The position numbers and the translations under genes were made by a program. From a virus: a stretch of DNA of 23,650 nucleotides. The stretch spans positions 1 to 23,650 of the IMG/VR virus record IMGVR_UViG_3300006916_000392. One strand, 5' to 3'. Under the pieces are notes generated by a model that saw only the letters and a program-made list of their open reading frames with translations, was not told where the DNA came from and searched no databases. Positions 3,424-21,758 of this stretch are shown here, one piece after another (the first letter of the stretch is position 1; each line of letters opens with the position of its first letter).

Positions 3424-5478
3424 ATGAAAGGTAAAGAAGTAAGTCAATCTTTTTTTGATTCTGTCATGAGAAAGTTAGGCGTAACGCCAACTGCAGAAAA
3501 ACGAAGATTTTTTAGAGCATGGCAACAAGCAGAATCAACTAATGCAAACTATAATCCATTAGCTACAACCAAAAAAACAACGAATTCTAAACCATTACCT
3601 GGAAACTCGGCTGGAGTACAACAATATTCATCTGAATCTGAGGGTGTTGATGCAACAGTCGCAACATTGCAATTAGATCAATATTACAAAGAATTAACAG
3701 ATAAATTAAAACAAGATGACATTACAGCAGAAGAGTTAGCTAATAGCACCACTGCATTAAACACCTGGTCTGGAGGACATGGAACATATATAGCAAAAAG
3801 GTTAGGAATGAAAACATCTGGAAATGGGAAAATTCAAAACACAATCGATACAGAATCTACCACTGTTACTAATTTTACAGAAGTAATAAAATACATATCT
3901 TACAATTTTAGCCCCGCAGTTCGATACGATGTCAATCGAATTGGGTTTGAGTATGATAATAAACGAATTACTATTAATAGAAATGGTTCTGCTACTATAT
4001 GGGATAAACAAACCAGAACTAAATCTAAAGAAGCATGGATATTAACAAAATCTGCAACAGGACAATATACGCTTACGATAGGTAATCAAGTATACCAACC
4101 AACCTCAGCAACATCGACACAAACTGCCGACGATTCGGAAGAATGGGAAGTAATTGACTATGTTCAATTAGCAATGGATTTCCTAGGATTTATCCCGGTT
4201 ATCGGAGATATTATTGATATTATTAATGCATTAATCTATTTTTATCGAGAAAAATACGTTGACGGATTCTTATCATTGATAGCAGTTATACCAGTAGCTG
4301 GATCATTTATTAAGTTAGGACTTAAGGGAACAATTAAAGCAACAGGAGCAGCACGAGCAGCTTCATCAATTCGAAAAGCGTTAGCCGGTAATACTGCAGA
4401 TTTAACCAAATTGTTACAAACTGCGGAGAGTACCGGAAAGTTGGATAAGCTTCAATTGAAACAAATCGCTGACTTTGGAGATTCTGCAGCCCAAATGCTT
4501 AATTCGTCAAAGAAAACATTGAAACAGTATGAATCTGCTTTACAAGTAGCAGGCGTCCCAACAGATGCAGTATTAAAACAATTTGACACATATATTGCAC
4601 AAGTTAAAAATATCACATCCGCGGCTGATGCAGCACGTAAAACAAGTAAAACATCTAAGCTTGCAAAAAGAGTAATTAAAGCACCAATTAAATTAATTGA
4701 TGGTGCACTTACTATAAGTACAGTCGGAAGCTGGCTACTTGTCAAACGTTTATTTAAAATTTTGAATATGAACATTGGTCGAATTCCACAATTGTTAGAT
4801 GGACTTAAAAGTGTATATAAAAGTAAATTAATGGCCAGCCCGACACTAGCTGCTCAAATGGCAAAAACAAACAATGTTATTCCTCCAACATTACTAAAAC
4901 AATTGTCGGGAGCTCCTACGAGTATTGAAATACGCACGGCGTTGGATTCATTAAAACAAACTAATCCTAGTCAATATCGAAAAGCAATTGATGAAATTGC
5001 AAGACAGTCTGCCACGTCAAATAATCCATACTATCGAATATTCATTGCTAATCAGTTGCAAGCAGCTGGGAACGTGATACGACCAGGAGCTACGGTTTCT
5101 GGTACTGCAGACGGTAGCATTGTTAATCTACTGAAGCAAATGAAATTCGGAGTAAAAACATTAGATGTAGTTTCAAATGAAGTTCAAGACGTAGCAGAAA
5201 AACTAGGATTTGATCCACAAGATGATCCAAATGCAGTTTTTGTTCCAGCCTTAATATCTGCAGTAAATTGGGCGCTTGGTGATAAAGATGCAGGTGCAGA
5301 AGAAAATGAGCAAGCAATGAATCCAACTAATGTATTAAACGGGGATGAATTAGAACGAGCTAAATCTGCATATGAAACTGCGGAAGGTAATAATCCTACT
5401 GAAAAAATAGCTTCCATGGCAGATCAAGGATGGAATGATTTAAAACTTTGGGCATTTCAAAAAATAATGGGATTCTGA
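3424..5478 (+). CDS. Large virion-type protein: N-terminal lysozyme-like domain plus central hydrophobic region
   Basis: Residues about 10-135 resemble the lysozyme/transglycosylase-like domain found in phage virion proteins. The pattern is FFRAWQQAESTNANYNPLATT, then GVQQYSSESEGVDATVATLQ, then a late NTWSGG segment. E37 is the candidate catalytic acid. Residues about 155-225 look like a small beta-rich domain. A strongly hydrophobic, glycine-punctuated region (about 248-300, with FLGFIPVIGDIIDIINAL) could insert into membrane. The remaining 380 residues are mostly helical and Ala/Lys/Gln-rich. An ejection protein that digests the wall and opens the inner membrane would fit, but this is inference. 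There is no capsid-leader motif at the N-terminus. Its TGA shares one base with the next ATG. Confidence 0.75.
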   Translation: MKGKEVSQSFFDSVMRKLGVTPTAEKRRFFRAWQQAESTNANYNPLATTKKTTNSKPLPGNSAGVQQYSSESEGVDATVATLQLDQYYKELTDKLKQDDITAEELANSTTALNTWSGGHGTYIAKRLGMKTSGNGKIQNTIDTESTTVTNFTEVIKYISYNFSPAVRYDVNRIGFEYDNKRITINRNGSATIWDKQTRTKSKEAWILTKSATGQYTLTIGNQVYQPTSATSTQTADDSEEWEVIDYVQLAMDFLGFIPVIGDIIDIINALIYFYREKYVDGFLSLIAVIPVAGSFIKLGLKGTIKATGAARAASSIRKALAGNTADLTKLLQTAESTGKLDKLQLKQIADFGDSAAQMLNSSKKTLKQYESALQVAGVPTDAVLKQFDTYIAQVKNITSAADAARKTSKTSKLAKRVIKAPIKLIDGALTISTVGSWLLVKRLFKILNMNIGRIPQLLDGLKSVYKSKLMASPTLAAQMAKTNNVIPPTLLKQLSGAPTSIEIRTALDSLKQTNPSQYRKAIDEIARQSATSNNPYYRIFIANQLQAAGNVIRPGATVSGTADGSIVNLLKQMKFGVKTLDVVSNEVQDVAEKLGFDPQDDPNAVFVPALISAVNWALGDKDAGAEENEQAMNPTNVLNGDELERAKSAYETAEGNNPTEKIASMADQGWNDLKLWAFQKIMGF

Positions 5479-6527
5479 TGATTAACGAGTACGAAACACA
5501 AGATACACTGAATCCAGCATTATGGTCAGACGGAAAGTTTGACAGCAAGCTTCGTACGGCTTTGTTGAAAATTGCAAAGCACTTTATTGAGTTCTTGGAC
5601 GTACCGGCTAAAATCAAAGATGTCACATTAACAGGAAGCAATGTTAATTATAATTGGACTCCACAATCAGACATAGATTTGCATGTAATACTAGATTATT
5701 CGGAAGTTGACGAAAATGCAGACTTGGTTCGCAATTTAATGATGGCCAAGAAAAACATATGGAACAACAATTATCCGTTGAAGTATCGTGATATGGATAT
5801 TGAATTGTATGCTCAAGATGACACCGAGCCACACACAAGTACCGGGGTGTATTCACTGTTGAACAATCAATGGATAAATGAACCCAGTCCAGAAAAGATC
5901 CAGGTTAAAGACGCCGATATAATAGCTAAGTCGGAGCCATTTGCTTACATGATAGACAACATTAAAGCAGATGATCCAAACGTGAAAGAACGAGTTGAAG
6001 CATTGAAAGCTAAACTAAAAAAGTTTCGGCAATGTGGATTGGAATCTGGCGGAGAATATTCATTGGAAAATTTAGCATTCAAACAACTCAGAAGAAGCGG
6101 TCATTTAGAAAGATTAAACAACATATATAAACAAGCAGTTATGTCAGACTTACAACAAGGATTAACAGAAGGATGTGGTTGTGGAGACAACACAGATGTA
6201 AGCTCAATGCTTAAACGACACATTCATTCCGATCAACGCATGACAGCAACGGATTGGAAGTTTTTGTTGAAACATATGGATACCGTTGTTGATCCAAGAG
6301 GCCAATGGGATCATCCCGGCAGATGCACACTGATACCAAGCAATCAGATAACAATGCAGAACGTGATGTATCCGGTATACGGAATAGATGATACGGGTCA
6401 TGCAGAAATGATGCAACCCGGACAAAACTACACATATCCAGGACGAATGGTGTTTGAAATACCAATGACATCACAAACATATAAAAATCTAGTTAAAGAA
6501 ATAGAAACATGGAATCAAGAGGATTAG
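5478..6527 (+). CDS. Nucleotidyltransferase-like protein with extra C-terminal domain
   Basis: An open frame reaches back to 5448, but the ATG at 5478 shares its A with the upstream TGA and fits the coupling seen elsewhere, so I choose it (349 residues). The N-terminal part carries a polymerase-beta-type nucleotidyltransferase signature: TGSNVNYNW near residue 52, SDIDLH with D65 and D67 as metal ligands, and MDIELY (107-112) as the likely third acidic strand. A helical region follows to about residue 228. Then comes LTEGCGCGD and an unrelated, unrecognised domain of about 115 residues rich in Trp, His and Tyr. The LTE-G junction resembles a T4-type prohead protease site, so the protein may be cut there. 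The substrate is unknown (tRNA, protein or small molecule are all possible). Confidence 0.8.
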   Translation: MINEYETQDTLNPALWSDGKFDSKLRTALLKIAKHFIEFLDVPAKIKDVTLTGSNVNYNWTPQSDIDLHVILDYSEVDENADLVRNLMMAKKNIWNNNYPLKYRDMDIELYAQDDTEPHTSTGVYSLLNNQWINEPSPEKIQVKDADIIAKSEPFAYMIDNIKADDPNVKERVEALKAKLKKFRQCGLESGGEYSLENLAFKQLRRSGHLERLNNIYKQAVMSDLQQGLTEGCGCGDNTDVSSMLKRHIHSDQRMTATDWKFLLKHMDTVVDPRGQWDHPGRCTLIPSNQITMQNVMYPVYGIDDTGHAEMMQPGQNYTYPGRMVFEIPMTSQTYKNLVKEIETWNQED

Positions 6528-8158: not shown

Positions 8159-9358
8159 ATGGCAATAAGTTTTAAAGGATCGATGGTTATTGGGCCAAGA
8201 AGAAGTACAGTTATTCAAACTGAATTCATTATGCTCGTTAAAACTGATAATGCTGGTACAAGTGCTAGTGATCAATTTACTATACCGACAGCATTCGGAG
8301 GGTATAATTATGATGTTGATTGGGGTGATGGTACTACTTCAACAGGAGTAACAGGAAATATTACACACACTTTTACGAGTGCTGGTAATTACGTAGTAAA
8401 AATTAGTGGTTCTTTTCCTCGTATTTACTTTAATAATGGCGGTGATAAACTTAAATTGTTAGAAATACAGAATTGGGGTAATATTGTTTGGGGTTCATTA
8501 GAAAGTAATTATTTTGGGTGTTCGAACATGGATATTACTGCGAACGATATACCTAATTTATCAAATGTTACTACAACGCTTCAAGCGTTTAGAAATTGTA
8601 CTTCATTAGTTGGAAATTCTTTCATGAATAATTGGGACGTTTCAAATGTTATGAATATGAGTAGTATGTTCAATGGTGCTTCTTCATTTAATCAAGATAT
8701 TGGTAGTTGGAACGTGTCAAGTGTTGCGAGTATGCAATCTATGTTCCAAAATGCAACATCTTTCAACCAAGATATTGGTAGTTGGAACGTGTCAATTGTT
8801 GCGAGTATGAATGGTATGTTCAGTGGTGCTTCATCATTCAACCAAGATATAAGTAGCTGGAATACAAGTAACGTTACTAACATGAGTAATATGTTTGCAA
8901 ATGCCTCATCATTCAACCAAGATATAAGTAGCTGGAATACAAGTAACGTTATTACTACCAGTTTAATGTTTCAAAATGCTGATTCATTTAATCAAGACAT
9001 TAGCAGTTGGGATGTTTCAAATGTCTCCAATATGCAACAAATGTTTTTTCTAAATAGTTTATTTGATAAAAATTTAGGAAGTTGGGATATATCAAATGCT
9101 TCAAATATGACCTTTATATTTGCTTCTTCTGTAATGTCAACAGCTAATTATACAGATACCATAGTTGGTTGGGCTAATTATGTATTTACAAGCGGAGTTC
9201 CTATCAATGTAAATATGAGTAGTCAAACAGGTAGAACATTTGACACCTCAAGAAGCGGAGGGGCTAACTTTGCAGACGCTGGCGCAGCACGAACATACCT
9301 AACAACAGCAACACCAACAGGAGCGGGGTGGACAATATCAGGAGACACAGTAATATAA
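8159..9358 (+). CDS. BspA-like repeat adhesin (PKD-like plus DUF285 repeats), likely tail-fibre receptor-binding protein
   Basis: The 399-residue protein has a short N-terminal anchor ([16 protein letters not shown]), a PKD-like beta domain (about 20-90, with VDWGDG and [16 protein letters not shown]), a linker, and a run of 25-residue BspA-like/DUF285 repeats from about 160 to 320. The repeat pattern is SFNQDIxSWNxSxVxxMxxMF. A C-terminal block ([16 protein letters not shown], then [13 protein letters not shown]) closes it. DUF285 repeats are common in surface proteins of Bacteroidota, mycoplasmas and other bacteria and in some environmental phages, where they probably bind ligands. It lies 1 base after the fibre gene and is paralogous to the C-terminal two-thirds of the product of 9585-11621. 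Confidence 0.85.
8641..9110 (+). repeat. 75-base in-frame repeats encoding DUF285 units
   Basis: About six units of 75 bases (25 codons). Two neighbouring units starting near 8829 and 8904 share more than 40 identical bases, and two units near 8690 and 8765 share a similar block. Such near-identical copies point to recent duplication or recombination and could allow unit-number change. Confidence 0.8.
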
Positions 9359-9584: not shown

Positions 9585-11621
9585 ATGAGTGTACAGACAG
9601 GGCCAACATTAGTTAGAGACGGATTAGTATTTTTTCTGGATGCTGCAAATCACAGATCATATGTCAGTGGTAGCACTCAGTGGATTGATTTAATTGGCGA
9701 TAACAATGCAGCACTCACTACCGGCACAGGATATGATCCAGGCAATGCAGGAAGCATAACATTCGATGGCATAGATGATTATGTACAGTTATCAGAAAAA
9801 CTGTTTGCAGGAGCAGAAGATTTTAGTATAGCTATAACATTCAAGAATACTAATAAAAACTACACGTTTTATGGTGGGCCATTATATGCAGAATGGACTA
9901 CTGGTGCCGGAACTGATAACAATGCAATAATTTCTTTATCACAAGGAAACTCAGCAGCATCATCAACTCCATACAATATACGGTTCACCTGCCAGATAAA
10001 TAATACATTCTATACTATTAGCAGTAATCGTGTAGCACAATTAAACAAGATTACTCATATAACCGTTACCAGAAGCGGCACTGATGTTAAACTGTATTTT
10101 AATGGGCAGTTGGATGCATCGGGCAGTATTGCCGCAGATCCAATTGATGATAGAACAAATAATCCGTTAATTGGCAATGCTGGGTATGGTGCAGATTATA
10201 AAGGAAGCATCTACAACATATACAAATACAATCGAAGTTTAACTGCAGCAGAAGTTGCTACAAATTATAATTCGTTACGAGAAAAGATCAATATACCGCC
10301 ACCGCGACCTAGACCTGAATTCATCATGTTGGTAAAGACTGATAATGCTGGTATCAGTGATCAATTTACTATACCGACAACCGGAACTGGTTACAATTAT
10401 ACAGTAGATTGGGGAGATGGGAACACAGACACAGGAGTAACTGGTGGCATAACACACACTTACGCAATTGCGGGAACTTATACGGTTAAAATTAGCGGAG
10501 CGTTCCCGCGGATTTACTTTATTGGTGGTAGTGGTGATAGACTTAAGCTGTTAGAGGTTCAAAATTGGGGTAATATTGCGTGGAGTAATATGTCATATGC
10601 TTTTTACAATTGTTCTAACATGGATGTAACAGCTCAGGATACACCGGATTTATCTGGAGTTACAACTATCACTAACATGTTCTACGGATGTTCTTCATTA
10701 GTAGGTAATTCAAGTTTTAATAATTGGAATACAAAATCTGTCACATCCACGAGTTCAACGTTTCAGAATTGCACGTTATTCAACCAGCCACTAAACAATT
10801 GGAATACAAGCAATGTTACGAATATGTCATATACGTTCGCTGGCGCTCCGAATTTCACCGGCGACATAAGCACATGGGATGTTTCAAATGTTACGAATAT
10901 AAGTTATATGTTCAGGGATGCTTCAAATTTCAACTCAAATATTAGCAGTTGGGACGTATCGAGTGTGGGGGGTACGAACATGCAAGCTATGTTCAATGGA
11001 GCCGCATCTTTTAATCAACCAATTGGCTCATGGAATGTATCCGGCGTTACCAGCATGAATTCAGTATTTCGTGGTGCGTCTAGGTTCAATCAAGATATCG
11101 GCGCATGGGACATATCAAATGCTACGGATCTGATCAGAATGTTTTTTCAAGCAACTGCTTTTAACAACGGCGGGTCGAATAGTATCAACAATTGGAATAC
11201 ATCAGCTGTTACGAATTTAACTGCAACTTTCCGTGAAGCGAGTAATTTCAATCAAGACATAAGCAGTTGGGACGTTTCAAATGTTACGAACATGTTCGAA
11301 TGTTTTGGTCATGTTAACGTAACGCCGAACTCATTCAATCAAAATCTGTCAGCGTGGCAACTACGAACAGCTGGTGTTAATTTGAGAACTATATTTTACA
11401 GATCCAGTATGTCGACAGCTAATTATACTGATACTATTGTCGCTTGGGCCAATCAGGTATTCACAAATGGAGGACCACTCAGTGTAGATATGTCATTGCA
11501 AGGTAGTCGTGTGTATGATACTTCCAGAAGCGGTGGAGCTAATTTCGCAACGGCAGGCGATGCCCGTACTTATTTAACAACTACTGCAGGATGGACGATT
11601 TCTGGAGACTCAGTAATATAA
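9585..11621 (+). CDS. LamG-like lectin plus PKD-like plus BspA-like (DUF285) adhesin
   Basis: The 678-residue protein combines three parts. Residues about 10-235 form a concanavalin-A/LamG-like jelly-roll domain (GLVFFLDAANHRSY, then SITFDGIDDYVQL, DFSIAITFK, VKLYFNGQLD, IYKYNRSLTAAEVATNYN), a common glycan-binding fold in phage fibres. Residues about 245-320 are a PKD-like domain (VDWGDGNTDTG, THTYAIAGTYTVKISG). From about 375 to 580 run DUF285 repeats (FNQDIxxWDxSNVTNM). The end block ([29 protein letters not shown]) matches that of the protein at 8159-9358, so the two genes share everything after the lectin. A GGAG lies 9 bases before the ATG (6 bases between), one of the few clear ribosome-binding sites here. 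It is a likely receptor-binding protein. Confidence 0.87.
   Translation: MSVQTGPTLVRDGLVFFLDAANHRSYVSGSTQWIDLIGDNNAALTTGTGYDPGNAGSITFDGIDDYVQLSEKLFAGAEDFSIAITFKNTNKNYTFYGGPLYAEWTTGAGTDNNAIISLSQGNSAASSTPYNIRFTCQINNTFYTISSNRVAQLNKITHITVTRSGTDVKLYFNGQLDASGSIAADPIDDRTNNPLIGNAGYGADYKGSIYNIYKYNRSLTAAEVATNYNSLREKINIPPPRPRPEFIMLVKTDNAGISDQFTIPTTGTGYNYTVDWGDGNTDTGVTGGITHTYAIAGTYTVKISGAFPRIYFIGGSGDRLKLLEVQNWGNIAWSNMSYAFYNCSNMDVTAQDTPDLSGVTTITNMFYGCSSLVGNSSFNNWNTKSVTSTSSTFQNCTLFNQPLNNWNTSNVTNMSYTFAGAPNFTGDISTWDVSNVTNISYMFRDASNFNSNISSWDVSSVGGTNMQAMFNGAASFNQPIGSWNVSGVTSMNSVFRGASRFNQDIGAWDISNATDLIRMFFQATAFNNGGSNSINNWNTSAVTNLTATFREASNFNQDISSWDVSNVTNMFECFGHVNVTPNSFNQNLSAWQLRTAGVNLRTIFYRSSMSTANYTDTIVAWANQVFTNGGPLSVDMSLQGSRVYDTSRSGGANFATAGDARTYLTTTAGWTISGDSVI
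10720..11340 (+). repeat. DUF285-encoding repeats, degenerate at DNA level
   Basis: In-frame units of roughly 75 bases recur with shared pieces such as TGGGACGTTTCAAATGTTAC. They are less alike than those in 8641-9110 and include insertions (for example around 11160-11200), which suggests an older array. Confidence 0.7.
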
Positions 11622-14622: not shown

Positions 14623-14943
14623 ATGTTCAATCAAACATACATATCAAAATCTGATATACATGGTTATGGAGTATTTGTTACGGAAGATGTTGCTGCAGGT
14701 GGCATCATAATACAACATCCATGTGTACCAATACAATCACGTAGACCAATACCACCAGAAATTGCTACTTATTTGTTTGGAGATGGAAAGGGCATTGCAG
14801 CAGTGTTTGGAAATGCTTCATACATCAATTCAAGCAAAACACCGAATGTCCGGCATGAACTAGATTTCAAATCAAATGTTATAACAGTGACAGCCGTACA
14901 AGATATTGCTGCACACACGGAAATAACATTGAATTACATGTAA
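14623..14943 (+). CDS. Minimal SET-domain protein (putative protein-lysine methyltransferase)
   Basis: The 106 residues follow the SET-domain plan from end to end. SDIHGYGVFVTEDVAAGGII gives the first strand pair with the GxG of the S-adenosylmethionine site, GNASYINSSKTPNVRHE corresponds to the NHSxxPN block, and AHTEITLNYM matches the closing E-[IL]-x-x-x-Y motif with the catalytic Tyr. The usual NHS is INSS here, so the His that helps hold the cofactor is missing and activity is uncertain. This size matches the short viral SET proteins, which lack pre- and post-SET parts. The target could be a phage structural or host protein; the sequence does not say. It sits between fibre and internal-protein genes. 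Confidence 0.8.
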   Translation: MFNQTYISKSDIHGYGVFVTEDVAAGGIIIQHPCVPIQSRRPIPPEIATYLFGDGKGIAAVFGNASYINSSKTPNVRHELDFKSNVITVTAVQDIAAHTEITLNYM

Positions 14944-14962: not shown

Positions 14963-15259
14963 ATGAAAAAGGCCACTCACATATTAAATGAAGCCATGGT
15001 AATACCATTACAACAATATGTTACTAAGATGGTACAGCAAGGATTTCAATACAATTATGACACTGCATTCAAAGCAGAATTAAAAAGAGCTATTGAAGCT
15101 GCGATAATGCCAATACTTAAAAAATATGGGTATATTGTTCAAACAGAAACTGGATACGATTGGTCAGGAATCAAAGATGTGGATTTGGATGAGTCTGCAG
15201 AACGTGCACTACGAGAATCAATTCACAAATATATGAAATCTAACAAATGGAAAAACTAA
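14963..15259 (+). CDS. Small unknown protein with capsid-targeting-like leader
   Basis: The 98-residue protein has no recognised family. Its first ten residues are MKKATHILNE, ending in L-N-E followed by Ala. This matches the T4 capsid-targeting pattern, in which a short basic/hydrophobic leader is removed after (I/L)xE by the prohead protease. The rest is helical and charged, with DWSGIKDVDLDESAERALRE near the end. It overlaps the next gene by 13 bases. It is a candidate packaged internal protein by leader only. Confidence 0.72.
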   Translation: MKKATHILNEAMVIPLQQYVTKMVQQGFQYNYDTAFKAELKRAIEAAIMPILKKYGYIVQTETGYDWSGIKDVDLDESAERALRESIHKYMKSNKWKN

Positions 15260-15651
15260 AGCACTTACTCATAGAACAACAAACCAAATGTCCTATTGCT
15301 ACACAAGACATCGATGTTAATTTAAAAAATCGCAAAAAGGCAATTGACGAATACATGTATGGACCATTAGATCCAAATCAACCAAATGAAGAATACTGGG
15401 AAGGTATTGCTGCAGAATGGAATATGGATGACGCAGCCCAAGCAAAGAGTGCAGTCTGCGGTAATTGTGCAGCATTTGATATCACAAAAAAGATGCAAGA
15501 CTGTATTGCTAAAGGTATCGGATCAGAACCAGGGAGTGATGCATATGATACTATCGATGCGGGAACATTAGGATATTGTAAATTTTTAAAATTCAAATGT
15601 GCCGCTAAAAGGACTTGCTCTGCTTGGGTGGAAGGCGGACCAATAAAATAA
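15247..15651 (+). CDS. Cys-containing phage protein with capsid-targeting-like leader
   Basis: The 134 residues start MEKLKHLLIE, again a 10-residue leader ending in L-I-E. The remainder has conserved-looking Cys pairs: VCGNCAAFD, QDCIAKG, GYCKFLKFKCAAKRTCSAW and a closing VEGGPIK. Six Cys in this spacing suggest a metal site (zinc or iron-sulphur), although none fits a named motif exactly. I recall this CGNCAAFD...GYCxFLxFKCAAxRTC pattern from unassigned proteins of marine phages. If the leader is cut in the capsid, this small metal-binding protein would be delivered with the DNA. Confidence 0.78.
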   Translation: MEKLKHLLIEQQTKCPIATQDIDVNLKNRKKAIDEYMYGPLDPNQPNEEYWEGIAAEWNMDDAAQAKSAVCGNCAAFDITKKMQDCIAKGIGSEPGSDAYDTIDAGTLGYCKFLKFKCAAKRTCSAWVEGGPIK

Positions 15652-15655
15652 ACAA

Positions 15656-16222
15656 ATGACACCAAACTTCATACCACATACTAAATTTCATCGAGCGTCA
15701 TGGTACAATGAACCGGGACAGTGTGATTGGTATTGGTATGCTCCAAGAAAGTCATGGAAGTTAAACCGAGATAAGAATTTTTATGATAGTCTGGATCCGC
15801 AGCTTGTTGATATAGTTAAAATGCTTCATGCACGCGGAATGCTTACCACTCCAAGTTGTACAGGTCATGTCAGAGATGAATCTTATTATTCAGATATATG
15901 GAATTCATTGAAACAGCAAGAATCCAGAATACAAAAGAATGGCATTCAGCTTGTTAATCCAGAAAACAATCACGATGTGCAATACAAAGACTCAGCATAT
16001 AAACTTCCATGGTCACAACAGAAGTTTGTTAGTACTGGAATGAAACATGGACCAATTGGTTGTTTAGGAGTACATCCAGGTAAACACAGAAATCAATTGC
16101 CAGATCGAGTCCCAGGATTCATCACAAAACAGGATGGCGCATTTACTATATATTTAACTAAATCTGATTCAGCTGACGAAATTGCAGAAAAATGGAATCA
16201 GTTTAAAATGAAACTGTCATGA
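15656..16222 (+). CDS. Unknown protein, 188 residues
   Basis: I do not recognise a family. The N-terminus is rich in Trp, His and Tyr (HRASWYNEPGQCDWYWYAPR), followed by LVDIVKMLHARGMLTTPSCTGH, a central helical part, and a C-terminal HGPIGCLGVHPGKHR and GAFTIYLTKSDSADEIAEKW. The two Cys/His clusters (PSCTGH, CLGVHPGKH) could form a metal site. It lacks the (L/I)xE leader of its neighbours. It overlaps the lysozyme gene by 4 bases, so the two are probably translated together. Confidence 0.72.
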   Translation: MTPNFIPHTKFHRASWYNEPGQCDWYWYAPRKSWKLNRDKNFYDSLDPQLVDIVKMLHARGMLTTPSCTGHVRDESYYSDIWNSLKQQESRIQKNGIQLVNPENNHDVQYKDSAYKLPWSQQKFVSTGMKHGPIGCLGVHPGKHRNQLPDRVPGFITKQDGAFTIYLTKSDSADEIAEKWNQFKMKLS

Positions 16223-16992
16223 TAAGTTTACGGAACATATTGTTAGAAGTTAAAACCTCAGATTTTATACAGAAACTAAAAAAGTGGGAAAACAGCATAA
16301 TGAAAGGCTGGGATCCTAAACAAAAGAAATGGTTTCCTCATGACAGTTTAGAAGGCGGCACTCCTACTATTGCATATGGCCATAAGCTAAAAACAAATTC
16401 AGAATATGCAGCTGGGATATCAGATGACGATGCTACCGAACTGTTGTTAGCTGATATTGATAAAGCAATCAACAAGATTAAAACAAAATTGGAAATTTCT
16501 AACTTTGATTCATTTCCGTTGTCGATTCGACAAGCTCTGGTAAATGCAGCATATCGTGGAGAATTGAAATCTGGACACAAAACGGTTGAGTATATCAGAA
16601 CCGGGCAGTGGAACAAGGTCGCAGATGAATATTTGGACAATCAAGAGTATAGAACCGGCGACCAAGGTGTCAAAACAAGAATGGATTGGAATGCGGCTCA
16701 ATTCAGAGACTATGCAAATAAAATAGCTCAGACTGCATTGAAGAATGACGACATCATGATATTGCCTGCAATCACAGAACCAACTCAAGAAGTTACTATC
16801 AAGGTGAACAAGCAAGTGCTACCAATCAAGCTGATTGTGTTGAAAATATATGATGCCGCCGGCAGGGAAGTTAAAATGCATCGATGGTTGGATGTAAAAC
16901 AAGGCATATTGCAATTTAAATCACCAAATGAACCAGGAACATACATTTTACGTTTAAATAACTCGGCATCTACACGATTACAAGTAAAGTAA
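16219..16992 (+). CDS. GH24 (T4-type) lysozyme with capsid-targeting-like leader and T9SS-like C-terminal domain
   Basis: This 257-residue protein has three parts. The leader MISLRNILLE ends in L-L-E, as in T4 internal proteins. Residues about 14-180 are a GH24 lysozyme, cutting MurNAc-GlcNAc: the catalytic Glu is E24 in KKWENSIMKG, and the following EGGTPTIAYGHKL is the active-site hairpin. The last 75 residues (from about 183) form a beta-sandwich-like domain, LKIYDAAGREV then PGTYILRLNN and LQVK. This strongly resembles the type IX secretion C-terminal sorting domain of Bacteroidota, though the classic KK ending is absent. Together these suggest a virion-packaged or ejected wall-cutting enzyme rather than the main endolysin (the amidase at 1-750). 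Confidence 0.83.
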   Translation: MISLRNILLEVKTSDFIQKLKKWENSIMKGWDPKQKKWFPHDSLEGGTPTIAYGHKLKTNSEYAAGISDDDATELLLADIDKAINKIKTKLEISNFDSFPLSIRQALVNAAYRGELKSGHKTVEYIRTGQWNKVADEYLDNQEYRTGDQGVKTRMDWNAAQFRDYANKIAQTALKNDDIMILPAITEPTQEVTIKVNKQVLPIKLIVLKIYDAAGREVKMHRWLDVKQGILQFKSPNEPGTYILRLNNSASTRLQVK

Positions 16993-16995
16993 ATT

Positions 16996-17024
16996 TTGGA
17001 TAGTATTATTTATTTATATATAAT
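16996..17024 (+). promoter_or_regulatory. Predicted promoter, near-consensus, leaderless spacing
   Basis: TTGGAT (16996-17001), a 17-base spacer, then TATAAT (17019-17024), the best -10 in the window. The ATG at 17031 lies 6 bases on, at the expected +1. It would drive the small-gene/ClpS unit. Read the Bacteroidota way (TTTTG, 20 bases, TATAAT) it fits as well. Confidence 0.65.
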
Positions 17025-17030
17025 ATAGAT

Positions 17031-17258
17031 ATGAATAGTAATAGTACTTATTTAGATAGAATTATTAAAACAGCTTTAACTGTGTTTACTAGTTCTGAGT
17101 TAGATCCATTGGATGCCTTCCCTGAAAATTGGCCGTTGGATCGATGCAATTTGTTTCTAGACAATCTGTTAGAATATTGCGCACACCCAGATCGAGAAAT
17201 GTGGGAACAAGCAGCAATTATACGAGATGTCAAAGAAGAAATCAACAAAACGTGGTAA
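17031..17258 (+). CDS. Small unknown acidic protein before the ClpS-like gene
   Basis: The 75-residue protein has no recognised family. It has a Pro/Trp-containing stretch (LDPLDAFPENWPLDRCNLF) and a helical end (EMWEQAAIIRDVKEEINKTW). It begins at the predicted transcription start, so it is probably leaderless. Its 3' end overlaps the ClpS-like gene by 32 bases in another frame. A co-factor for the adaptor is possible but not supported by any motif. Confidence 0.68.
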   Translation: MNSNSTYLDRIIKTALTVFTSSELDPLDAFPENWPLDRCNLFLDNLLEYCAHPDREMWEQAAIIRDVKEEINKTW

Positions 17259-17481
17259 ATACGAAGTGTTTGTGCTCAATGATGATACTCATTCGTTTGG
17301 CGAAGTAATCAGTGCGTTAATGGAGGTTTGCGGTCAAAACAGATTTCAAGCCGAACAATGTGCTGTGATTACACATAATACGGGCCAATGCTCCGTGTTT
17401 ATCGACAAACATGACATTAGTATGGAGATTTACGAAGACCTTGTAAAAACCGGGTTAAACTGCAAAATACAAAAACAGTAA
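17227..17481 (+). CDS. clpS: ClpS-like N-degron adaptor
   Basis: The 84 residues match the ClpS core along their whole length. ClpS delivers proteins with N-degrons (Leu, Phe, Tyr, Trp) to the ClpAP/ClpCP protease. The N-degron pocket residues are visible: N18-D19-D20 in VLNDDTHSF and H50 in AVITHNTGQCSVF. The phrasing LMEVCGQNRFQAEQCA and DLVKTGLNCKI is closer to Bacteroidota ClpS (IEVCxHxxxQAEQC, LxxRGLSAxI) than to the E. coli protein, which hints at capture from a Bacteroidota host. The pocket looks intact, so it may redirect the host Clp protease. Alternatively it could act as a decoy that blocks host ClpS. It shares one base with the next gene (TAATG). Confidence 0.85.
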   Translation: MSKKKSTKRGKYEVFVLNDDTHSFGEVISALMEVCGQNRFQAEQCAVITHNTGQCSVFIDKHDISMEIYEDLVKTGLNCKIQKQ

Positions 17482-17657
17482 TGCGAATACTATATTACAA
17501 TATCCGTACGGCCTTTGCCCATGCTAGATATCATCGCTATCTGAGAAAAATGACATATTACAGAGAACGTAAAGACTTAGTAAAATTTAAACAAGCTGTG
17601 CATCAGGCAGAAGATGCTTGGCGCAAAGTAGTATATTTCACACAAAAATTAAAATAA
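17481..17657 (+). CDS. Small basic protein, 58 residues
   Basis: The ATG shares its A with the ClpS-like gene's TAA, giving a tight TAATG coupling. The product starts MRILYYNIRTAFAHARYHRY and is rich in Arg, Lys, Tyr and His with one likely long helix. I do not recognise a family. A nucleic-acid- or protein-binding role is possible. The coupling and absence of another frame in the gap support it. Confidence 0.68.
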   Translation: MRILYYNIRTAFAHARYHRYLRKMTYYRERKDLVKFKQAVHQAEDAWRKVVYFTQKLK

Positions 17658-17664
17658 ACAAGTT

Positions 17665-18051
17665 ATGGGTAAAAAAGCAGCACATACCGGAATGTCTCCG
17701 AAAGATATTTCTGTGAATGCAATGGATAAATTTATTTCCAGAAATGATCGTAAGCGAGAAATCGAATTTCAACGATTAGGACGTTACAAACATGAGTCTC
17801 AGGCAATTGACCTGTGGCCGATGCAAGATCAAATTGATTATTATGAAAAGAATGCAGACCGACTTCGCTTTCAAAGAACTTATCCTAGCTATTCAGTGTG
17901 GAGACAAGCAGTTCTAGACAAGTCCGGAGTGTATCCTTCTACATTCATAACATTCACTGCACCACACCGTGAAATGATGCGAAACATGTATGCCGCACAA
18001 ACATCGATAGCAGAAGCAGTTGATCGTTTAAGAACCTTGGGAGTGTACTAA
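17665..18051 (+). CDS. Unknown protein, 128 residues
   Basis: The protein is basic at the N-terminus (MGKKAAHTGMSPKDI, then ISRNDRKREIEFQRLGRYKHE) and helical towards the end (EMMRNMYAAQTSIAEAVDRL). No motif is recognised. It starts 7 bases after the previous stop and ends 1 base before the HNH gene, so it is in the same unit as the ClpS-like gene. Confidence 0.7.
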   Translation: MGKKAAHTGMSPKDISVNAMDKFISRNDRKREIEFQRLGRYKHESQAIDLWPMQDQIDYYEKNADRLRFQRTYPSYSVWRQAVLDKSGVYPSTFITFTAPHREMMRNMYAAQTSIAEAVDRLRTLGVY

Positions 18052-18052
18052 T

Positions 18053-18619
18053 ATGGATATGGCAGAAAAAGAAAAGAAGTACAAGTATGTGTACGGACGG
18101 GGACGCAGTGCTCTTAATATAGGAGAGTCTGAAATACGTTATGCAATGGAGAATACCAAGTCCAATGCAGAAGCAGCCCGGTTCATGAAAGTGTCTTTTA
18201 CTACTTATAAAAAGTATGCCAAAATGTATACGGATCCAGCAACAGGAAAGACTCTGTATGATATGCATACCAACCAAGAAGGATATGGAATCACAAAAAA
18301 TGTCTCTAGAGCTAAAGCTGGAAAGTATTCTATAGAAAAGATACTGTCAGGCGAGCATCCAAATTATCCAACATGGAAACTCAGAAATCGATTGTTAGCA
18401 TTAGGCATATTAACAGAAGAATGTAGTAGTTGCGGATATGCAGAACGCAGAATAACAGATGACACTGTGCCTTTGCTACTGGATCATGTTGACGGAGACA
18501 CAACCAATCACCGCATAGAAAACATACAGCTGTTGTGTTTAAATTGTTACTATCAACAAACCGGCAATCCTTACAACCAAAACAAAGAGCAGTATTGGAA
18601 CTATAATCTGCTAGACTGA
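18053..18619 (+). CDS. HNH-type endonuclease-like protein with N-terminal helix-turn-helix-like region
   Basis: The 188-residue protein ends in a zinc-ribbon HNH module: C124-x2-C127 (ECSSCGY), then LLLDHVDGDTTNHRIENIQLL with the His (about 145) and Asn/His of the beta-beta-alpha-metal fold, then C162-x2-C165 (CLNC). The N-terminal part has a NAEAARFMKVSFTTYKKYAKMY stretch that looks like a DNA-binding helix-turn-helix. This layout is common in free-standing phage HNH homing endonucleases. There is no intron sign in this window, so the target is unknown. A second in-frame ATG lies at 18059. It is followed after 8 bases by the tandem repeat at 18628. Confidence 0.8.
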   Translation: MDMAEKEKKYKYVYGRGRSALNIGESEIRYAMENTKSNAEAARFMKVSFTTYKKYAKMYTDPATGKTLYDMHTNQEGYGITKNVSRAKAGKYSIEKILSGEHPNYPTWKLRNRLLALGILTEECSSCGYAERRITDDTVPLLLDHVDGDTTNHRIENIQLLCLNCYYQQTGNPYNQNKEQYWNYNLLD

Positions 18620-18625
18620 TATATT
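18595..18625 (+). promoter_or_regulatory. Weak promoter candidate before the tandem start repeat
   Basis: TTGGAA (18595-18600) and TATATT (18620-18625) are 19 bases apart, two more than in the other promoters, so this is uncertain. Transcription would start just before the first repeated ATG (18635). Confidence 0.3.
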
Positions 18626-18627
18626 TA

Positions 18628-18708
18628 TTAATATATGAAACTACGAGATATACTTTAATATATGAAACTACGAGATATACTTTAATATATGAAACTACGA
18701 GATATACT
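18628..18708 (+). repeat. Perfect 3 x 27-base tandem repeat spanning the gene start
   Basis: Three identical head-to-tail copies at 18628-18654, 18655-18681 and 18682-18708. Each contains an ATG followed by codons for MKLRDI. Copies 1 and 2 give seven-codon ORFs (18635-18658 and 18662-18685) that end in TAA; only the third ATG (18689) opens the long gene. The unit is a multiple of three, so all three starts are in one frame. Confidence 0.95.
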
Positions 18709-20353
18709 ACTAGAACAATCAAATAAATTTGATGCAAAGGCAGTAGCAGATAAAATCTACAATGCCAAAGGCTATGTTTACGATAATGAACAAGAAGCCA
18801 TTAACGCCGTGAAGTCGATAAAAGATATAAATCAATTGGAACAGGTTGAAGACAAGTTTATAGAACTATCAGAAGGTCGTACCATATCCGAATATCTTAT
18901 AAGCTTCTTAGATAATTTTAAACAAAATTTCACAGTATTAAACCATTTATATTCAATATCAAAAAACAATCGTATTGCATTAGAATCTCTGGTATATCCA
19001 TATGCAGCAGAGTTAATATATGAATATAAAAGAGATATAGCCCGGGTTGGATCTGATATTCAAAAGAAACAAGGACAAACTAATACGGTTGGTTTGAAAG
19101 ATGCCGGACTTTTATTCGACTGGTTTAAACCGTATTTAGGTGAAGCTAACTTTAAAAAGTGGGTTCCGATAGTTCAAGATCCGCAGTATATTGATAATCC
19201 ATTTAATGCGTATCAAGCTGAAGAACAATTTAAATATGGAAAAACTAAAGCAGTATCATCTAGTACAATTTTAGTTGGTCAATTAATTGTTGGAATAATT
19301 GCAACGGTTGCATCGGGCGGGTTAGCAGCACCAGCAGTAGTCGGATGGCTTGCATTAGGAACTGCTACTGGAATGGGGCTATACGATGCAGCACAAGAAT
19401 ATAATCTAGGAAACAAGCAGACAGCTGGAATCATGGCAGCAATCGAAGTATTGCCATTAGTATCAAAAATACCTGGAGTTAAACAAGCAGTTAGAACGGT
19501 TGGTAAAAGTTTGGCCACGAAGTTAGCTGCAGGTTCGAAATATCTTACTAGCCAAGAACGATTTTTAGCAAATCAGCTAGCAAAATATGAAGAAGCAATC
19601 CAAGCTGAGTTAAAAGAATTAGAAAAAACTGTTAAAAATCAAGGCGATTTGCCTTCATCGATGGAGGTGCCTTCATCAGTTAAGACTGGTAAGGAGGATA
19701 TCCCGTTGCAAAAAATCTATGGTACTGGATCTGGCGTAAAAATAGGAACATACGGCAAGACGGCAGTTGGTAACCCTCAAGCTGTATTCGGGATAATAAA
19801 TGATTCTGGCCTAAGCAAATATATCGGATATTATGCTGTAAAAGACGGAGCAGAGACAATATATAAATTAACTACGAAAATGGAATGGGAAGGAGAAGGA
19901 TTTAAACGAGTATTAACTGCGATTTCTAAAATTCTTCCCGATCACATTTTATTTGAAAAAACGAGTATATCTACAGATGCAATTAAATGGTGGCACAGTC
20001 AGATAAAAAATGGATATAAACCAACAAGCAAAACATTTGAAGTGCCATTAAATAACGCCGGCGTAAAGTTAAAAGTAACTAAACCAACCAATTTTGCAGA
20101 TGCGTTACTTAGTAAAGAAGAAGCTGAGTTAGCAATCGAAACAATTGAGAAACAGGACTGGTTTAAACGGATTCCTGGTGCTAAATTAACTATCGGCCCG
20201 CAGGAGACATCTGTGCGCTCGGCTTATCCTGTTTTTAAAATTGAGGTTACATTGCCAGAATTACAGTCGACTACTAAATCATTAAATAACTTAGGCATAG
20301 CACGTTCAATGATAGCACCAGCCGTTGCTGACAAATTAAATTCAAAAGAATAA
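18689..20353 (+). CDS. Large protein with capsid-targeting-like leader and central hydrophobic region
   Basis: The 554-residue protein starts MKLRDILLE, a 9-residue leader ending in L-L-E, matching the prohead-protease pattern. Residues about 190-270 are hydrophobic and glycine/alanine-rich (QLIVGIIATVASGG, VVGWLALGTATGMGLYDAA, GIMAAIEVLPLVSKIPG), like a membrane-inserting hairpin. The layout is similar to that in the product of 3424-5478. A coiled, charged stretch follows (about 285-320), then a C-terminal mixed region ending near LNSKE. No enzymatic motif is recognised. An injected pore or ejection protein is a fair inference. The start at 18689 is the third copy of a tandem repeat and the only one leading into the full frame. 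Confidence 0.78.
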   Translation: MKLRDILLEQSNKFDAKAVADKIYNAKGYVYDNEQEAINAVKSIKDINQLEQVEDKFIELSEGRTISEYLISFLDNFKQNFTVLNHLYSISKNNRIALESLVYPYAAELIYEYKRDIARVGSDIQKKQGQTNTVGLKDAGLLFDWFKPYLGEANFKKWVPIVQDPQYIDNPFNAYQAEEQFKYGKTKAVSSSTILVGQLIVGIIATVASGGLAAPAVVGWLALGTATGMGLYDAAQEYNLGNKQTAGIMAAIEVLPLVSKIPGVKQAVRTVGKSLATKLAAGSKYLTSQERFLANQLAKYEEAIQAELKELEKTVKNQGDLPSSMEVPSSVKTGKEDIPLQKIYGTGSGVKIGTYGKTAVGNPQAVFGIINDSGLSKYIGYYAVKDGAETIYKLTTKMEWEGEGFKRVLTAISKILPDHILFEKTSISTDAIKWWHSQIKNGYKPTSKTFEVPLNNAGVKLKVTKPTNFADALLSKEEAELAIETIEKQDWFKRIPGAKLTIGPQETSVRSAYPVFKIEVTLPELQSTTKSLNNLGIARSMIAPAVADKLNSKE

Positions 20354-20357
20354 TTTT

Positions 20358-21104
20358 ATGATATCATTGAAACCACTCATACTAGAAGGTCGTTATGATG
20401 CAATGGTTACTCAACTATCTAAACGACTGCTACAAGTAGTAAAAGATAGTTACGCGGCAGTTTCAGATCCACAAGGCGAATTTGCAGGAGAAAAAATATA
20501 TTTCACTGCACAGGAAACAGTGCCTCCTATAGATGATGATAGTAGGTTTAGACACATATATTTTGAAGAAGTAGAAAATGAAACTATTCCATTAGAATTT
20601 TATCTGCAACTCAAAGTGCAGTGGATTCAAGATTATGATGATTTCCGTAAAGGTGGTGATGCATACAACGAAGTAACTCGTAACGGCGAAGAAGTTCCAT
20701 TAATCGAATTACGGTTTGAACTAGACCCAGCAGAATATCCTAAGATACTAAGCCACGTGGCCATGGAGATGCGAGACACACTTCGTCATGAAATAGAACA
20801 TTTAACACAGAGCGGATGGAATACTAAAGGCAACAAGTTTATGCCATCTGATTTAGCAACCAGAAAAAAGATACAATACGGTCAGTTACCAGCATTCAAA
20901 TACTTCACGCTTCCAAAAGAAGTAGATGCAAACATTCAAGGTTTATATTTTCAAGCCAAGAAACAAAGAACACCATTTAAAACTGTAGCAAATGATTATT
21001 TAGATTTATTTGTTCCGGATGTAATAACACCACAAGAAAAAGAAATGATATTGGATGTTTGGCGAGCAAGACTACCAGCATTATCAATAAGACAGGAACT
21101 ATAA
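20358..21104 (+). CDS. HExxH metallopeptidase-like protein with capsid-targeting-like leader
   Basis: The 248 residues start MISLKPLILE, a 10-residue leader ending in I-L-E, followed by Gly. A zincin-type motif, RHEIEHLTQSGW (H144, E145, H148), gives two zinc ligands and the catalytic Glu; the third ligand is not obvious. The region before it (ELRFELDPAEYPKILSHVAMEMRDTL) would be the edge strand and helix. After it, the protein is Lys- and Phe-rich with no clear domain. Leader plus HExxH suggests a protease carried in the capsid and released into the host, or a maturation enzyme. This is inference from motifs. It starts 4 bases after the previous stop. Confidence 0.75.
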   Translation: MISLKPLILEGRYDAMVTQLSKRLLQVVKDSYAAVSDPQGEFAGEKIYFTAQETVPPIDDDSRFRHIYFEEVENETIPLEFYLQLKVQWIQDYDDFRKGGDAYNEVTRNGEEVPLIELRFELDPAEYPKILSHVAMEMRDTLRHEIEHLTQSGWNTKGNKFMPSDLATRKKIQYGQLPAFKYFTLPKEVDANIQGLYFQAKKQRTPFKTVANDYLDLFVPDVITPQEKEMILDVWRARLPALSIRQEL

Positions 21105-21119
21105 TAAAGGAACACCAAG

Positions 21120-21758
21120 ATGCCATACACTTATAAAAAACAAGACAACAAGTATTGTGTATACAAAAAGGACTCTGGAGAAAAGGTTGGATGTACCGAT
21201 GGTACCAAGACAGCATTAAAGAAATATTTAGCAGCATTGCATATCAATGAAAAAATTAAGGGAGCTGATGGAAAGGCTTGTTGGGATGGATATCGATATG
21301 CAGGAACGGAGAATGGCAAAGATAAATGCGTAAAGGTGAAAACAAAAAAAGAAGCTAAACTACCAAAAACCGGGTTTTCACGTAAAGAAGACATGATTAT
21401 GTACGAAGAAGGCGAAATGTGTGACAAATGTGCAGCTGACCTATTAAGAGACATACAAGAAGGCATGTACGCCGACACAATAACAGAAGCAGAATACAGA
21501 GGACGCAAAGTTAAATTGAACAAGCCGATGCGTGGTGATGTTAAAAAGTTCAAAGTGTATGTGAAAGATCCTAAAACAGGAAATATTAAAAAGGTAAACT
21601 TTGGACATGGAGGTACCAGTGCCAAAAAAGCCGGACAGAAAACTATGCGTATTCGAAAAAATAATCCTAAAGCTCGTAAGTCATTCAGAGCACGTCATAA
21701 CTGTGATAACCCAGGACCAAAGACCAAAGCCAGATATTGGTCGTGCCGCAAATGGTAG
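21120..21758 (+). CDS. Basic Cys-containing phage protein with internal prohead-protease-like site
   Basis: The 212-residue protein has an N-terminal part (1-85) with Cys pairs and GCTDGTKTALKKYLAALHINE, a linker with MCDKCAADLL, then ADTITEAEYRGRKV. The last 85 residues are very basic (KVYVKDPKTGNIKKVNFG, KSFRARHNCDNPGPKTKARYWSCRKW). I recall this C-terminal block from unassigned proteins of environmental myoviruses; it may bind nucleic acid. The I-T-E followed by Ala just before the basic block fits the (I/L)xE cleavage rule, so the basic part may be released in the capsid. AAAGGA lies 8 bases before the ATG, a good Shine-Dalgarno site. Confidence 0.78.
   Translation: MPYTYKKQDNKYCVYKKDSGEKVGCTDGTKTALKKYLAALHINEKIKGADGKACWDGYRYAGTENGKDKCVKVKTKKEAKLPKTGFSRKEDMIMYEEGEMCDKCAADLLRDIQEGMYADTITEAEYRGRKVKLNKPMRGDVKKFKVYVKDPKTGNIKKVNFGHGGTSAKKAGQKTMRIRKNNPKARKSFRARHNCDNPGPKTKARYWSCRKW

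Follow-up and report, generated by a model that had tools for sequence, protein, structure and literature searches.

In T-even phages, the internal-protein loci encode unrelated proteins that share a leader sending them into the head, and the proteins Ip1-3 inhibit type IV restriction enzymes (PMC12373910). In T4, leaders of this kind are carried by IPI, IPII, IPIII and Alt, are cut by the prohead protease gp21, and mark proteins that enter the host together with the DNA. Mutants of the 10-residue IPIII leader assigned residues 4 and 7 to targeting and residues 8 and 10 to processing, and it has been suggested in a review of T4 that such leaders allow T4-like phages to package various proteins (PMC9026906). 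In phiKZ and SPN3US, too, a prohead protease processes many virion proteins, which leave the head together with the DNA, the head ejection proteins carrying propeptides (PMC5694885, PMC10052503). Here we describe a leader of the T4 type in the IMG/VR record IMGVR_UViG_3300006916_000392, which is analysed as a complete record of 23,650 bases (the window) and is a fragment of a larger phage. We propose, with a probability of roughly 0.86, that this leader is a T4-type capsid-targeting and prohead-protease cleavage signal, and that the proteins bearing it are packaged, injected with the DNA and probably active in the host.

Five open reading frames, at 14963, 15247, 16219, 18689 and 20358, begin with MKKATHILNE, MEKLKHLLIE, MISLRNILLE, MKLRDILLE and MISLKPLILE, respectively, as an initial annotation of the window had reported. 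The bodies of the five proteins differ, as that annotation also noted; with the leader removed, no mutual similarity was found (all E > 0.19). The T4 sequence to which the leaders had been compared, MKTYQEFIAE, is the N-terminus of IPIII as named and also that of IPII. As in T4, the leader has about 10 residues, ends in (L/I)xE, is hydrophobic at the key positions of IPIII, and occurs on proteins that are otherwise unrelated. An S77 protease, too, is shared, in the case of the window by its syntenic relatives. The consensus differs, being MI(K/R)LKxLLxE here, and up to ~18 proteins per genome fit the strict form of the leader defined below. The bearers also differ: in T4 they are small basic proteins and an ADP-ribosyltransferase, whereas here, judging from sequence, they include HExxH proteins, lysozyme-like proteins, kinases and iron-sulfur-like Cys-rich proteins. 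The leaders are scattered around the genomes, unlike the T-even loci, for which two hotspots in E. coli phages are described (Repoila et al. 1994, as cited in PMC12373910). The phages here are uncultured, probably aquatic members of the T4 superfamily, and the anti-restriction role is that of Ip1-3. The phiKZ and SPN3US proteins belong to giant phages outside the T4 head lineage. The literature searched contained no published description of such leaders outside the T-even phages, although one may exist elsewhere. The distinct consensus is new, as are its bearers and its wide occurrence among uncultured phages of the T4 superfamily.

A strict rule was built from the IPIII mutants, which requires a Glu at residue 8-14, Leu or Ile two residues before it (E-2) and hydrophobic residues at E-3 and E-6, and the Met residues inside the same proteins were used as the null. 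Gene calls were greedy longest open reading frames, not the product of a trained gene finder, and gave 30 genes in the window. With the Glu at residue 9 or 10, the strict rule fits 4 of the 30 genes compared with 0.18% of internal Mets (P = 2.9e-7). The wording of the initial annotation, (L/I)xE with its Glu at residue 9 or 10, fits 5/30 genes compared with 2.7% of internal Mets (P = 1.2e-3). The targeting and processing positions (hydrophobic at IPIII residues 4 and 7, Leu or Ile at 8, Glu at 10) are satisfied by four of the five leaders. A looser version, (L/I)xE anywhere from residue 8 to residue 14, was dropped as a test, since 8-10% of internal Mets already fit it. For that loose motif 5/30 is unremarkable, and the shared N-termini could then be chance, short matches driven by composition; most of the strict matches in T4 and in the cyanophage S-SM1 could be random as well. 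The strict-rule P value in the window speaks against chance, as do the comparisons across homologues and genomes.

Among all fetched loci, the strict leader is kept in 33/39 homologues of the strict-leader genes (14/15 for 15247, 6/8 for 16219 and 13/16 for 20358; the 18689 gene had no qualifying homologue for this count). It is present in 0/154 homologues of the remaining window genes, and many of these genes (ClpS-like, HNH and others) are interleaved with the tagged ones. The leader is also linked to the protease. In nine S77-bearing genomes selected independently of the leader, T4 and S-SM1 included, 93/1943 N-termini fit the rule compared with 45/6932 internal Mets (odds ratio 7.7, p = 1e-30). 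Two more genomes chosen by protease only gave 24/450 N-termini compared with 20/1675 internal Mets, and the HExxH protein is present in both of them and in two further protease-chosen contigs longer than 100 kb. No enrichment was observed in six contigs without S77 (2/673 N-termini compared with 26/2626 internal Mets), a small and imperfect sample made up of contigs in which the match to a control pattern did not lie at a clear gene start.

That control belongs to a search with the leader only. In IMG/VR viral contigs, 103 stretches matched a degenerate DNA pattern that encodes MIR(L/F)Kx(L/F)(L/F)xE, whereas a register-shifted control, in which the Glu was moved by one residue, found 34, of which 8 also fit the first pattern. 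An open reading frame of at least 40 amino acids is opened by 84/106 of the leader-pattern matches. All five contigs longer than 100 kb with the pattern at a gene start carry S77, compared with 0/11 control contigs. Taken with the homologue counts and the lack of enrichment where S77 is missing, this makes chance a highly improbable source of the shared N-termini.

The source of the window is, from its sequence relationships, placed as an uncultured phage related to T4. The window overlaps two near-identical contigs, L001 (99.91% identity) and L002 (99.56%), and shares gene order with contigs G054 (160 kb) and G047 (145 kb). In G054, PHROG matches identify terminase (gp17), portal (gp20), the gp21 protease and a T4-type major capsid protein (gp23) in a head module that lies outside the window. 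The gp21-like prohead protease that the initial annotation had called for was not found within the 23.6-kb window and is present in both syntenic relatives (S77, E 1e-33; in G054 the head-maturation protease is phrog_207, E 4.5e-55). Aligned to T4 gp21, the relatives' protease keeps two motifs, GELxHP and G(V/I)SSRG; the relatives also retain the Glu at which gp23 is cleaved in T4. The closest isolate by major capsid protein is the Flavobacterium phage vB_FspM_immuto (Immutovirus), at 57.5% to G054. In immuto gp21 and gp23 are annotated and 13/226 genes fit the strict rule; unlike the window, it has mainly leaders of the types MENFDLKKFLVENK, MKKSELVKLIKEE and the like, and its HExxH domain is fused to a nucleotidyltransferase-like protein.

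The 266 unique leader proteins from the pattern loci and the strict-rule proteins of other contigs fall into 104 body clusters. In relatives the bearers include a zeta-toxin-like kinase, a HEAT-repeat protein, a HAD-phosphatase-like protein and a DUF6267 protein in which the Pfam match begins at residue 16. In the set from which the consensus was derived, which excludes the pattern-selected loci, the terminal Glu and the Leu or Ile at E-2 are the most conserved residues and the information content falls directly after the Glu; the rule fixes both of these residues but not E-8, E-7 or E-5. Among the window leaders, codons are identical in 10/24 same-residue comparisons compared with 10.5 expected from codon usage, and recent copying of the leader DNA between window genes is ruled out by this agreement. 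A small overall excess in codon identity comes mostly from a few genomes (immuto, G115 and G112), where it perhaps reflects paralogous families.

Several features suggest that the leader is cut and not only bound. In 16 listed T4-like contexts, the site (L/I/V)xE|AEYxG stands ahead of the basic domain phrog_7595, and close variants of the site precede the same domain in HTVC008M and Melnitz. In small phages, the stand-alone phrog_7595 domain begins with MAKYxG, the same position as the start after the site, and the predicted cut would therefore give an almost identical N-terminus. The kinases have leaders of different types, 10 to 15 residues long, and yet their bodies can be aligned starting with the residue that follows the Glu. 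In the HExxH fusion proteins, the junction retains MAE, MSE or LME ahead of GRYD. The leader could instead be a docking tag for the head core, which brings a protein into the prohead and is not removed. Docking and cutting are separable: when position 10 of T4 IPIII is Asp, targeting still occurs and processing does not (PMC9026906). The evidence for cutting in these phages comes from sequence. A tag that is only docked would not explain why the Glu and the residue at E-2 are the most conserved, why conservation stops at the Glu and the body domains begin directly after it, or why the relatives carry a gp21-like protease with conserved motifs, and we regard retention of the leader as unlikely.

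A role outside the head is about equally unlikely. The leader is a short amphipathic N-terminal stretch, which might serve in membrane or secretion targeting, in translation initiation, or in sorting to the tail or another assembly intermediate; of the bearers, the lysozyme-like protein weakly resembles tail lysozymes and another has a hydrophobic stretch. A head function fits better with the fixed (L/I)xE ending, the association with S77 and the agreement with T4 positions 4, 7, 8 and 10. Similar leaders are also found on the relatives' major capsid proteins (MKVNNILAES and MELNSLLNES), and a cyanophage bearer has been detected in the virion. In S-SM1, 1/225 called genes fits the strict rule, that of the cytidylyltransferase T4-GC190, which begins MKKFSAFLNE|A and keeps the leader in 3/4 diverged orthologues. 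According to the S-SM1 proteome report (PMC3037559), T4-GC190 is among the proteins detected by mass spectrometry in purified virions. The single match could be a coincidence because 41 proteins were detected in that virion (PMC3037559).

A capsid-targeting and cleavage signal was thus supported in every available sequence test, as it is gene-specific and linked to the protease and its conservation ends at the Glu. Several observations weigh against it. No virion proteomics were found for the window's phage or its close relatives, and the protease gene is not in the window fragment itself. The residues directly after the predicted cut (P1') are mixed, not mainly Ala, Ser or Gly. The strict rule misses T4 IPI and Alt, and it matches 10 T4 genes, of which three encode known substrates (IPII, IPIII and gp24) and several others are probably chance. 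These matches include the replication proteins DNA ligase and RNase H, and single matches are therefore not proof. Within the window, MKKATHILNE appears to be a weak and doubtful member of the set because it has Ala at E-6, the position of IPIII residue 4, which breaks the strict rule, and because its protein has no homologue beyond the near-identical contigs.

In the mechanism that we infer, the first 9-10 residues, hydrophobic at E-6, E-3 and E-2, would attach to the scaffold core while the head is still immature, and this binding would carry the tagged protein inside. The gp21-like S77 prohead protease would then cut after (L/I)xE during head maturation. The freed cargo (the lysozyme-like protein, the putative HExxH metalloprotease, the Cys-rich protein, the large protein that has a hydrophobic stretch, and probably also a basic one) would remain alongside the packaged DNA and be delivered into the host cell on infection; there it would probably act in the first minutes, for example against host defences. 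A broader proposal stands at even odds: one short lineage-specific import-and-cleave tag may load ten or more enzymes per head, the set having been built by tagging unrelated genes, which would amount to a large injected arsenal, so far unexplored, that includes a metalloprotease disarming the host at once. A sequence rule that is valid across distant T4 relatives would allow candidate injected effectors to be picked out and ranked among long lists of hypothetical proteins by sequence alone, and the leaders could be used as transferable tags for packing cargo into the heads of phages other than those of E. coli.

The candidate cargo genes all lie on the plus strand. The first (14963..15259) encodes a 98-residue protein with (L/I)xE at residue 10 and is the weakest member. 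The second (15247..15651) encodes a 134-residue Cys-rich protein that fits the strict rule, and its E10 is invariant across 17 aligned homologues. Relatives of this protein in other phages carry the annotation "high potential iron-sulfur protein"; its structural model (predicted local distance difference test, pLDDT, 53) is too poor to read and a PDB profile search of it gave only noise. The third gene (16219..16992) encodes a 257-residue lysozyme-like protein that matches Pfam Phage_lysozyme (E 2.3e-4), marginally and just short of the curated cut-off, and the PHROG baseplate hub/tail lysozyme (E 1.2e-6). The fourth (18689..20353) encodes a 554-residue protein that fits the strict rule and has a hydrophobic central stretch; it has no Pfam or PHROG match and is weakly similar (27% over 119 amino acids) to a leader-bearing 342-residue protein of contig G008. 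The fifth (20358..21104) encodes a 248-residue putative zinc metalloprotease, gluzincin-like, with an HExxH motif and a conserved Glu188. H144, E145, H148 and E188 are invariant in 20 homologues, as expected for HExxH plus a third ligand. In its model (mean pLDDT 73.6) the first 12 residues are disordered (leader pLDDT ~29) and the fold starts after them; no Foldseek match to a solved structure was obtained at E <= 0.001. Of the cargo set put forward in the initial annotation, the lysozyme is backed by a marginal match and the HExxH protein by its conserved residues without a fold match, and the supposed membrane-active protein shows only a hydrophobic stretch.

A sixth cargo protein, missed by the initial annotation, is probably encoded at 21120..21758 (plus strand). 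It has 212 residues, with a variable N-terminal part, IQE|G and ITE|A sites and then a basic C-terminal domain (phrog_7595, E 2.2e-13).

The start of the 18689 leader is present in three perfect 27-bp tandem copies (18628..18708, plus strand, 100% match). The two upstream copies read MKLRDIL-stop and end beside the next ATG. Three copies are found in the window and L001 and two in L002, and copy number therefore varies within the population. In the T4 annotation, alt.-1 and alt.-2 are described as the product of an old duplication that involved the first part of alt, a possible parallel to these tandem copies.

Other leaders were also observed. A second family, MKHIKLFExFINE, with (L/I)xE at residue 13, is found on several unrelated proteins in G039, G042, L037 and L043; the S77 match of G039 (E 1.2e-14) sits in a 724-residue open frame. 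A third recurring leader, M(E/A)NFDLKKFLVENKLTxNSKLL, occurs in immuto, G014 and G031, with several proteins per genome in immuto and G014. In T4, gp61.1 (18966-19130) begins MKTFKEFIKED and gp2 (gene 2, 76061-76885) begins MAIFQIINES; both fit the strict rule, and from their N-termini they may be unrecognised prohead substrates. The window gene at 5478-6527 encodes a nucleotidyltransferase-like protein that starts with M(I/L)xEYxTQ in 5/5 compared homologues, with (I/L)xE at residues 2-4.

Directly upstream of the first leader gene, at 14623-14943, is a small SET-domain protein (Pfam E 1.3e-10), and a ClpS-like protease adaptor is encoded at 17227-17481 (Pfam ClpS E 1.3e-12), with synteny kept in six related contigs. 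A PAS-domain histidine kinase (747-2443) adjoins a response regulator, and the pair is also present in contig G007. The tail-fibre region includes a protein with DUF285 (BspA-like) repeats and a PKD-like domain at 8159-9358 and, by sequence likeness, a DUF285 (BspA-like) repeat protein with PKD-like or lectin-like domains at 9585-11621. A Shine-Dalgarno-like site precedes only 3/29 plus-strand window genes, which fits a Bacteroidota-like host. L001 adds ~7.4 kb downstream of the window, through a groEL-like gene past the window end (L001 13579-15201, read by eye) and without reaching the head genes; immuto also has groES and groEL.

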